A stretch of 64,000 nucleotides of DNA, taken from assembly GCF_017875325.1 (NCBI RefSeq), contig NZ_JAGGMN010000001.1:1054001-1118000 (forward strand). Direction: 5' to 3'. This document shows, one piece after another, positions 12,020-20,326 of this stretch (positions are counted from its first letter, which is position 1; every line of letters starts with the position of its first letter). The translations under genes and the position numbers were made by a program. The DNA comes from Methanofollis sp. W23. Lineage in GTDB: Archaea > Halobacteriota > Methanomicrobia > Methanomicrobiales > Methanofollaceae. Below the pieces are notes generated by a model, which was not told where the DNA came from, did not search any database, and saw only the letters and a list, made by a program, of their open reading frames with translations.

Positions 12020-12255
12020 GGCTCTGTAGAAATCCACATGATAAATCTCTTTGGCGGGGGGCATGCCGCCCCCCGATCCCGCGCGCGAGCGAGCGAGAGG
12101 TGGTGGACAGTAAATTTCTCTTCAGATTCAGCGATTATGCCTTCCCGACCCCATCTTCATCCCGGGGGTCCGGGGGCAGCGCCCCCGGCCGAAGAGGTGG
12201 GAAGGCGGGCGACACACCATCCCCCCACACAAGAGACGAGGGTTTCTACAGAGCC
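12020..12255 (+). mobile_element. MITE-like element, 236 bp, perfect 13-bp terminal inverted repeats
   Basis: The left end GGCTCTGTAGAAA (12020-12032) and right end TTTCTACAGAGCC (12243-12255) are exact reverse complements. Flanks AATTTCTG and AATCCCTG agree at 6 of 8 bases, a decayed target duplication. Inside are a GGGGGGC-ATG-CCGCCCCCC hairpin, then CTTCCCGACCCCATC, a CCGGGGGTCCGGGGG... hairpin core and GGGAAGGCG. No coding capacity. An orphan right end, TTTCTACAGAGCC, lies at 11980-11992, so a second copy abuts it on the left, with 27 bases between. Confidence 0.8.
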
Positions 12256-17421: not shown

Positions 17422-18288
17422 ATGATTGATCAGTTGATGCGATCTCTTACTCTCCCCCCACCCCCACCGGTCCTCTTCAAGACCCCGACCCCTGAGGAGA
17501 CCGCACGCGAGGGCTACCTCGCCGCCGACCTCCATGTCCATACCAACCACTCGGACTCTTTTACAAGAGTGCGCGACCTCCTGCGGTCCGCGGCCAGGCA
17601 GGGGATCGGGTGTGCGGTCACCGACCACAACCAGGTCCGCGGGGCGGTCGAGGCGTGTCATTTGGCAAGCGGCGTGCCGGTGATCCCTGGCATCGAGGTG
17701 AGCGCCGACGACGGCCCCCACCTCCTCTTCTACTTCCCGGCGCTCTCTGACCTCACCGACTTCTACCGCCGCCATATCGAGAGGAAGAAGAGGGACGGGC
17801 CATGTCTGGCCATCAGGATGACGACCGCAGAAATTCTTGACGCCCGCGAGGACTATCACTGTGTCGCCGCCGAGGCGCACCCCTGCGGCTATGCCTTCCT
17901 GAACCGCGGGATGCAGGAGGGGATCGAGTGCGGGCGTATCGATGCCAGGACCATCACCCGCCTCGACGCCATCGAGGTGATCTGCGGCGGGATGGCCCGC
18001 CCCCACAACCTCGCCGCCGCCGACCTGGCCTGCACCTACGGCCTCGGGCGGACCGGCGGGACCGACAGCCACCTCCTCCGGGAGTTCGGCGGGGTCGTCA
18101 CCTGCGCCGAGGCCGGGAGCGTCGAGGAGTTCCTGGAGGCGATTGTGCGCCGCAGGAGCGTCGTGATCGGGCGAGAGCGCAATCTTGCCGAGAAGGCGAT
18201 GATGGGAGCGGCGGTCCTCCCCCACCACCTCCCATACGCCCTTCCGATCCTGAGAGGGTGCGTCTGGGAAAGGTTTTTGAGGGGATGA
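17422..18288 (+). CDS. PHP-domain phosphoesterase family protein
   Basis: 288 residues. The PHP metal site is visible as DLHVHTNHSD (about residues 36-45), VTDHNQ, PGIEVSADDG, AAEAHPCGYA and GGTDSHLL near residue 215. Archaeal PHP proteins of this size are usually predicted phosphoesterases or TrpH/YciV-like nucleases; the substrate is unknown. The first five codons up to a second ATG are uncertain. It stands alone between repeat-filled gaps. Confidence 0.85.
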   Translation: MIDQLMRSLTLPPPPPVLFKTPTPEETAREGYLAADLHVHTNHSDSFTRVRDLLRSAARQGIGCAVTDHNQVRGAVEACHLASGVPVIPGIEVSADDGPHLLFYFPALSDLTDFYRRHIERKKRDGPCLAIRMTTAEILDAREDYHCVAAEAHPCGYAFLNRGMQEGIECGRIDARTITRLDAIEVICGGMARPHNLAAADLACTYGLGRTGGTDSHLLREFGGVVTCAEAGSVEEFLEAIVRRRSVVIGRERNLAEKAMMGAAVLPHHLPYALPILRGCVWERFLRG

Positions 18289-18436
18289 GGTGGGAGACCC
18301 CGGGGTGACGATAGGGATAGAGACAGGGAGGCAACACAGAAAATTCTGGAGAGAGTGCCGCTGCCATCCAGGGTTCAATCATGTGGCACGGGAGAGGGGC
18401 GGCCAACCCCCCGCGACAGAGAGATCCAGAGGGTTT

Positions 18437-18748
18437 ACCATGAAAATAATCCTGACGATCCTCTCTTTTGGTTTGCATGAGAATCTGAACTCGCCATATC
18501 CCGTTGAAGCCAATACGCAGAGAATAAAATATTCCTCTGATGGATCGGCCGCCCCCAATCGTCGAGATATCCCTGCCATCTCGCCCCGGGGGGGTGCACC
18601 CCCGGGCCCCCCACGACGAAGATAGGTGGGGGCGGCGATGGAACACGATCCCCATCGATTCTCCTCTCTTGAAAAAGAGCGATCAAGCGACGAAAAATTT
18701 TCATCCTGTATGTGTGAGCCAGAGGTTCATGCCCTATTCTACAGAGCC
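18437..18748 (-). mobile_element. Composite repeat element (long type), copy 1
   Basis: About 310 bases roughly 80 percent identical by eye to 24454-24771, and present in the opposite orientation at 29281-29620. Landmarks are TTTACCATGAAAATAATCC, AATACGCAGAGAATAAAA, TGATGGATCGGCCGC, a GGGGGGGTGCACCCCCGGG hairpin, GTGGGGGCGGCGATGGAAC, ACGAAAAATTTTCATC and the end TTCTACAGAGCC (18748). Upstream to 18290 is decayed repeat DNA with no clear second terminal repeat. Confidence 0.65.
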
Positions 18749-19129
18749 GAAATTCAGAATCTTATCCTTCCCCGGACCCCCAAGACACGATAAGGTTGTG
18801 GACTGCAACGCACTCGTCATGGTCATCTATTCTGCCTTCCAACCTGATCTCGAAGATCGGCACAACGATCAGGCTCTCTGCCTTCACGGTCCGGCCCGAT
18901 CTTCGTCTCGGGAGCAGAACCCCGGGCGTGAAGACGCGGGAAGGCGAGATGATCAGGGGTGGCCGCCCTCAACTGAAGAGTCTTCCTCCTCGTCTCGCGT
19001 CGGGGGGCAATGAAGCAGTGTCTCCCTCTGGGGCCTCCTGCTCTGAAGGGAGAGCAGGGATCCACTCACTCTGAGAGGACTCCAGGGAGGACCAGAGGAG
19101 ACGAGTGAGAGTAAATTCAATAAAATATC
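18749..19129. repeat. Intergenic repeat fragments
   Basis: Fragments of the family occur at 18767-18840 (CCTTCCCCGGACCCCCAAG, then GATAAGGTTGTGGACTGC, then CATGGTCATCTATTCTGCC) and at 18890-18950 (CCCCGGGCGTGAAGACGCGG, then GGAAGGCG). No gene is supported. Confidence 0.45.
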
Positions 19130-19356
19130 GGCTCTGTAGAAATGTTCTTGATGACAATCTCTGCAGGGGGCGTGCCGCCCCCCCCGTGCGAGCGAGAGGC
19201 AGTGGATGGTATTACGCTCTTCGTGGCGATTGAGTGTGCCTTCCCGACCCTATCTTCATCCCGGGGGTCCGGGCGGCACTCGCCCCCGGCATGATTGTGC
19301 GGGAAGGCGATTGAGTCGCCCTTGCACCGAGAGGAAGTGAGGATTTCTACAGGGCC
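19130..19356 (+). mobile_element. MITE-like element, 227 bp, with perfect 8-bp target duplication
   Basis: The left end GGCTCTGTAGAAA (19130-19142) and the right end TTTCTACAGGGCC (19344-19356) are inverted repeats with one mismatch. The element is flanked on both sides by AAAATATC (19122-19129 and 19357-19364), an exact 8-base direct repeat. Inside are a GGGGGCGTGCCGCCCCC hairpin, GTGCCTTCCCGACCCTATC and a CCGGGGGTCCGGGCGGC...CGCCCCCGG core. This is the clearest proof in the window that the repeat has moved by transposition. Confidence 0.88.
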
Positions 19357-19364
19357 AAAATATC

Positions 19365-19858
19365 TGAGTTTAGCCCTGTAAAATCAGGCATGAACCTTTT
19401 GCTCACGCATACGCGATGAAAATACTTGTTCCTCCGAAGAAGAGAAGAGATGAGAGGGACGGCATACCCTTCTTCAGGATCGTTCACTCTCTTCGACCTT
19501 CTGTGGGCCTATGATTTTTAGAGAGACGACTGGAAGGAGCATGAGCACATCTCCAGGGTCTTCCAGAAGCACCCGGTACAATAGAGGGGGGACGGCGATT
19601 GAATCCAAACTTCCCCACCCACCCAGAAGATGGTGATGGATGATAGTGGGGGGATCCTCTCCTCTTCGTTGTACAGCCATCCATCATCTCCCCCCACCCC
19701 CGCGCTCGGGGTTTCCTCGAAGCGCTTCAGTTCGAGGAGATGTTCAAGACTCTGGGAATTCAAACCCAAAAAGAGAAGGGAGATCTATTTCCAGAACCAA
19801 TGCTGAAATTCAGGTCTCAATGAGGGCGAAACCGTTGCAATTGACCTCTCTGCCAGTC
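19365..19858. repeat. Intergenic stretch with further repeat fragments
   Basis: AGCCCTGTAAAATCAGGCATG followed by CACGCATACGCGATGAAAAT (19371-19425) is the left end of the long element type. GATGATAGTGGGGGGATCC and TCTTCGTTGTACAGCC (19640-19680) resemble the segment near 13760 and 61430. No gene seen. The convergent dtxR gene ends at 19859. Confidence 0.45.
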
Positions 19859-20326
19859 TCACCGGCAGCCTTTCTCATAATGGAACTTCTTGCAGAACGC
19901 GGAGAAACGCCCAAGCATGTCAGACGAACGGGAACCGTTCTTGAAATACTCCACCAATGCTCCTATCTGCTCGATGGTCTCAGGGTGGAGTTCGTGCTCC
20001 ATGAAACAGGCATCTTTGTCGGCGATATCTTCAGGCACCTCGATGAGCATCAAGAACGACTTGAGCGTATCGTGCCTGAACTTGATCACCCAGGCGACCT
20101 TCTCCCCCTCAGGTTTGAGGGTCACCCCTTCGTATTTCCGGTACTCGACCATACCCATCCGGTCGAGCTTCTGGAACATTTCCACAACACTTGAGGGGCT
20201 GACATCAAGTTCGCCGGCGATGTCCTTGGTCCTGGCATACCCCTTCTCAAGAGAGACATTGAGGATGGCCTCAAGGTAATCTTCGGCTTTTCTGGTGAGG
20301 GCAATCACGCCCTGTACCTTTACCAT
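19859..20326 (-). CDS. DtxR/MntR-family metal-dependent regulator
   Basis: 155 residues. Residues 1-70 form a winged helix (EDYLEAILNVS, then DIAGELDVSPSSVVEMFQKL) followed by the metal-binding dimerisation domain with DACFMEHELHPETIEQI, where Cys/Glu/His ligands of the DtxR family are expected. It is the last gene of the feo operon, 19 bases after the membrane-protein gene, so it probably senses Fe2+ and represses its own operon. No SH3-like third domain is present, so it resembles the MntR/short-form members. Confidence 0.9.
   Translation of the reverse strand: MVKVQGVIALTRKAEDYLEAILNVSLEKGYARTKDIAGELDVSPSSVVEMFQKLDRMGMVEYRKYEGVTLKPEGEKVAWVIKFRHDTLKSFLMLIEVPEDIADKDACFMEHELHPETIEQIGALVEYFKNGSRSSDMLGRFSAFCKKFHYEKGCR

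Follow-up and report, generated by a model that had tools for sequence, protein, structure and literature searches.

Archaeal MITEs usually share just their ends with their insertion sequence (PMC3852290). Those paired with ISMma12, ISMac15, ISMbu10 and ISMba19 are present in 5–24 copies and have duplications of 0 or 3 bp, and a set of 19 'MITE-like' archaeal repeats has no autonomous partner, loss of the partner being one explanation offered (PMC3852290). For ISTth7, an insertion sequence filed as IS5/ISH1, the features given are a size range of 900–1150 bp, direct repeats of 8 bp and a single ORF (PMC6352166). In bacteria ERIC provides an example of abundance, with 711 copies in Photorhabdus (PMC10969869). 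Our search of the literature found no account of MITEs in Methanofollis or Methanomicrobiales.

The repeat family described here, from the genome of Methanofollis sp. W23, resembles the IS5-linked archaeal MITEs in that it is short, non-coding and multi-copy, with only the terminal repeats common to an insertion sequence. It differs from them (PMC3852290) in being a family of hundreds of copies with 8-bp duplications. Like the partnerless 'MITE-like' repeats it resides in a genome without an intact partner; unlike them, it is accompanied there by a relic of the partner, and sister species carry matching insertion sequences. The likeness to ERIC is one of copy number, in the hundreds, and does not extend to sequence or host. 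The insertion sequences found in relatives are comparable to the ISH1 group of the IS5 family, being 1007–1009 bp long with an IS5 transposase, 8-bp duplications and ends that match the MITE, whereas the focal element has no transposase gene and a GC-rich, unrelated interior. Our verdict is that this is a high-copy MITE family belonging to an insertion sequence of the IS5/ISH1-like type, and that in its own genome it is for the most part an orphan.

The focal element and its family

In the window, by which we mean the whole 64-kb stretch of DNA that was analysed, the focal element is intergenic, with a PHP-domain gene (17422–18288, plus strand) on one side and a gene for a DtxR/MntR-type regulator (19859–20326, minus strand) on the other. 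The features of the element, and family copies elsewhere in the window, are as follows.

19122–19129, no strand: left target-site duplication AAAATATC
19130–19356, minus strand relative to the family consensus: 227-bp non-autonomous element (MITE), model positions 1–232, 191 bits
19130–19143, plus strand: terminal inverted repeat GGCTCTGTAGAAAT
19343–19356, minus strand: terminal inverted repeat GGCCCTGTAGAAAT
19357–19364, no strand: right target-site duplication AAAATATC
12020–12255, minus strand: family copy, profile, 195 bits
16989–17170, minus strand: partial family copy, profile, 143 bits
27977–28220, minus strand: family copy, profile, 147 bits
32124–32349, minus strand: family copy, profile, 152 bits
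48642–48890, plus strand: family copy, profile, 182 bits
52856–53109, minus strand: family copy, profile, 154 bits

A sequence-only reading of this DNA had described an exact 8-mer on both sides of a 227-bp element with 13-base inverted ends carrying one mismatch. The two copies of AAAATATC are indeed identical at 8/8 bp and directly adjoin the element at 19122–19129 and 19357–19364. The single mismatch in the ends was also confirmed, but their length has to be amended, as GGCTCTGTAGAAAT and GGCCCTGTAGAAAT match in inverted orientation at 13 of 14 bp before they diverge. The element is non-coding, overlapped only by chance ORFs that are all short (62 aa at most), and no match to it was found in plasmids. 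The focal element and its family thus display the attributes of a MITE: they are short and non-coding, with terminal inverted repeats and a target-site duplication, are multi-copy at unrelated sites, and have ends common to an autonomous insertion sequence, although only over some 17–18 bp.

A search of its own genome (2.9 Mb, two contigs) with the element yielded 52 matches, among them many full-length ones at 73–82% identity. The end motif GGCTCTGTAGAAAY, with at most one mismatch allowed, occurs 459 times genome-wide, and the reversed pattern used as a control occurs twice. A family profile (56 copies) returned 312 matches in a 464-kb sample of the genome and none in reversed sequence; the 312 matches include both strands and some overlap, because the element is nearly palindromic. 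This sample was partly chosen to include known hits and is therefore not random for copy density, whereas the window was not so chosen. Scaled up from the approximately 12 near full-length copies that the profile search identifies in the 64-kb window, the family would number several hundred genome-wide. Repeats with at least three matches inside the sample occupy 8.5% of the window.

Target-site duplications and empty sites

Exact 8-mers at both borders are present in 15 of the 57 inverted end pairs that lie 60–300 bp apart in the 464-kb sample. When the left 8-mer was slid by 1–40 bases at the same 57 pairs the mean was 0.025, and this shift control is independent of how the sample was picked. 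With slightly looser ends there are 69 pairs; 15 of them match exactly and 27 with one mismatch or none, against means of 0.34 and 1.1, respectively, when borders were re-paired at random. The identity between left and right borders is 52–62% at exactly eight positions and 17–29% just outside, and the duplication length is therefore 8. The family targets are AT-rich (28% GC versus 54% in the flanks), with a palindromic consensus near GAAATTTC. It had been argued that an AT-rich 8-mer repeated at both boundaries in a high-GC region would be very unlikely by chance; the exact match does lie far above chance, but the preference of the family for AT-rich targets weakens the argument.

Empty sites were sought by comparing the joined flanks of seven other family copies with the genus. 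One MITE (L080:8643–8874; C1 about 2408643–2408874), flanked on either side by CTGAAGTC, splits the reading frame of an aminotransferase; the frame runs unbroken through this site in six sister genomes, where there is a single CTGAGATC or CTGAGGTC-like 8-mer. For another copy (L071:9090–9321), GAGAAGAC occurs twice in its own genome and sister G001 has one GAAAATAC at the corresponding place. A third (L069:2973–3093) is absent in two sisters, where the sequence is continuous across the site. These comparisons show that the three copies inserted after the split from those sister species. The family-wide border test and the three sibling empty sites bear out the earlier proposal that the focal element inserted with an 8-bp target-site duplication.

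When the flanks of the focal element were joined, every match that crossed the junction was weak and short, and the sister genomes examined show no conservation of the focal intergenic DNA. The flanking genes are unlinked in G004, G005, G008 and G009 and have a different relative orientation in G001. The intergenic space with the element (window 17422–20326) is a rearrangement breakpoint relative to the sister genomes examined.

Two adjacent elements are found at L074:9685–10356, with CCAACAAC at the left border and again after the second element and CAAACAAC between them. We offer both stacked insertions and a tandem product as accounts of this arrangement.

Matching insertion sequences and the origin of the element

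A 1008-bp insertion sequence in sister species G005 (L087:1444–2451) has ends that match those of the MITE, an exact GAACAATC/GAACAATC duplication and an IS5 transposase, and it contains a single ORF, as checked in this copy. Others measure 1007 bp (L116, L124, L131 and L148) or 1009 bp (L145), all with exact 8-bp duplications, and in a degraded copy (L090) the duplication is still exact. Copies of 1007–1009 bp with exact 8-bp duplications are present in G003, Methanoregula sp. UBA154 and Euryarchaeota archaeon BL5_bin.5. The named carriers are mostly Methanoregula and, together with gene content and the way in which the relatives cluster, they indicate the order Methanomicrobiales. The transposase reaches 237 bits with the IS5 model NF033579, for which the cut-off is 140, and 77 bits with PF01609; a search with the protein matched nine of the 12 genus genomes. 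Approximately 17–18 bp are common to the MITE consensus and the insertion sequence at each end, the interiors being unrelated. Placed by size, duplication length and IS5 membership, not by phylogeny, the partner appears to resemble the ISH1 group of IS5.

We consider it very probable that the focal element is a MITE and that the enzyme which moved it, in trans, was the transposase of an insertion sequence of the IS5 family similar to the ISH1 group. Such an enzyme would recognise the terminal inverted repeats of the MITE, cleave at the GGCTCTGTAGAA ends and join the element to staggered cuts made 8 bp apart in an AT-rich, roughly palindromic target, the consensus being near GAAATTTC; repair of the staggered cuts would then produce the 8-bp duplication. 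Cut-and-paste chemistry of this kind is typical of DDE transposases. The ends and the duplication length suggest the pairing of MITE and insertion sequence, given that the interior is unrelated, and it is from this pairing that we infer an IS5 transposase as the mover of this particular copy.

The end motif first directed suspicion to the IS6/IS26 family, of which the element would then be a MITE. The motif and the 8-bp duplication length are superficially alike in the two, and the IS6 ends, which we take to be GGxxCTGT..., served as a lead only. Such an origin is extremely unlikely, since the IS6 transposase (PF13610) is absent from the own genome and from all 12 genus genomes, the copies in two of 120 genomes of the order are without MITE-type ends, and IS5 elements with matching ends exist; we rejected IS6/IS26 for want of a transposase in the genus and for the wrong ends in the order. 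Movement by some other family that makes 8-bp duplications, namely ISL3, IS1595 or IS256/Mutator, is just as improbable. Families of these kinds can give 8–9-bp duplications and a broken Mutator-type transposase does occur at C1:17286–18228, but that copy is not bracketed by GGCTCTGTAGAA-type ends. For ISL3 there is no PF01610 in the own genome and for IS1595 no PF12762 in the genus, and these sources were rejected in turn because either the transposase or the matching ends are absent.

An explanation of a different nature is that the repeat has been preserved for a role as structured RNA or regulatory hairpin and is not a transposon relic. Its abundance would agree with this idea, and so would the folding of the focal element, which is far stronger than that of shuffled sequences (z of −6.7), yet the inverted repeats account for such a fold. 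The covariation term is near zero (−0.18), with any double change in three of 27 pairs (38 copies), and there is no Rfam match in 18300–20000; on these grounds an RNA family or covarying structure was rejected. The duplications and empty sites, moreover, show mobility. We regard this explanation as very unlikely for the family, although single copies may have a secondary regulatory role. The chance that the flanking 8-mers are coincidental and the element is not an insertion is close to nil: the AT-richness of the 8-mer, and nothing else, speaks for it, to be set against exact 8-mers at 15 of 57 end pairs with a control mean of 0.025 and against the sibling empty sites.

Mobilisation in trans by an IS5-family transposase is therefore the reading that we retain. 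Sister G005 has another type of element (L105), with GGCTCTGTAGAATCAGGCATGAAC ends together with an 8-bp duplication; given this type, some of the copies could have been moved by a second, related transposase.

Partner relic, age and possible cargo

Within the two contigs of the own genome a search with the transposase protein gave no match at E ≤ 0.001, and the IS5 profile at a loose threshold found one fragment. The sole detectable copy of the matching insertion sequence in the assembled genome is an internally deleted, truncated relic (L199:1461–1624; C1 about 1034469–1034632). Two pieces remain, matching the L145 insertion sequence at approximately 90% identity, and the roughly 347 bp that would lie between them are gone; the relic ends exactly at the right end of the insertion sequence, GGCTCTGTAGAATTCCTCAACAAACA. 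The lineage therefore once carried the insertion sequence and, since the only detectable partner is a relic, the MITE family is probably no longer mobile in its own genome. The family grew to hundreds while the matching transposase decayed to a relic, and intact insertion sequences persist in the sisters, which makes the family well suited to the question of how long MITEs persist once their helper is gone. Sequence like a type I restriction subunit gene, named by eye, adjoins the relic on the other strand.

The focal copy had been thought to have inserted relatively recently. Our results do not sustain this: it lies 17% from the family consensus, the closest paralogue found is 80% identical and no intact matching transposase was found in the genome. 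Its divergence is about average among 56 copies (range 11–27%), and the closest distinct pair of family copies found is 95% identical. Copies with intact and with decayed duplications diverge by 17.3 and 18.7%, respectively; the two barely differ and an intact duplication is therefore no sign of recency. Taken alone, it is a poor clock. Great age of the focal copy is likewise not proved by these values, in which source diversity and age are mixed.

One intact duplication taken singly is ordinary; of more interest are the abundance of copies whose partner has been lost and an acetyltransferase gene bracketed by MITEs. At L068:12756–14753 (C1 about 652756–654753) two MITE copies flank a gene for a 375-aa GNAT acetyltransferase, which at 35% GC is foreign-looking in a region of 56% GC, and the outer borders of this composite carry an exact 8-bp duplication, TATTTTGT. 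It is the one case with an exact 8-bp duplication among 140 end pairs 1–6 kb apart, against a control mean of 0.025. We tentatively suggest from this single case, while leaning slightly against it, that pairs of gene-less MITEs formed the termini of larger transposons that carried cargo. If this is true, the MITEs would have been the mobilisation ends for a captured gene, with the matching transposase detectable there only as a relic.

The window also contains fragments, at 18429–18748 and from 19372, of a second repeat type whose ends resemble GGCTCTGTAGAATCAGGCATGAACC. An element of 1395 bp in sister G006 (L102:1545–2939) has related ends, a duplication GACAAAAA and a reading frame that by eye is DJ-1/PfpI-like, and no intact transposase frame was seen in it. 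A 1488-bp copy of the second repeat type in sister G005 (L105:1398–2885) has split transposase frames and is flanked by the duplication GATAATAT.
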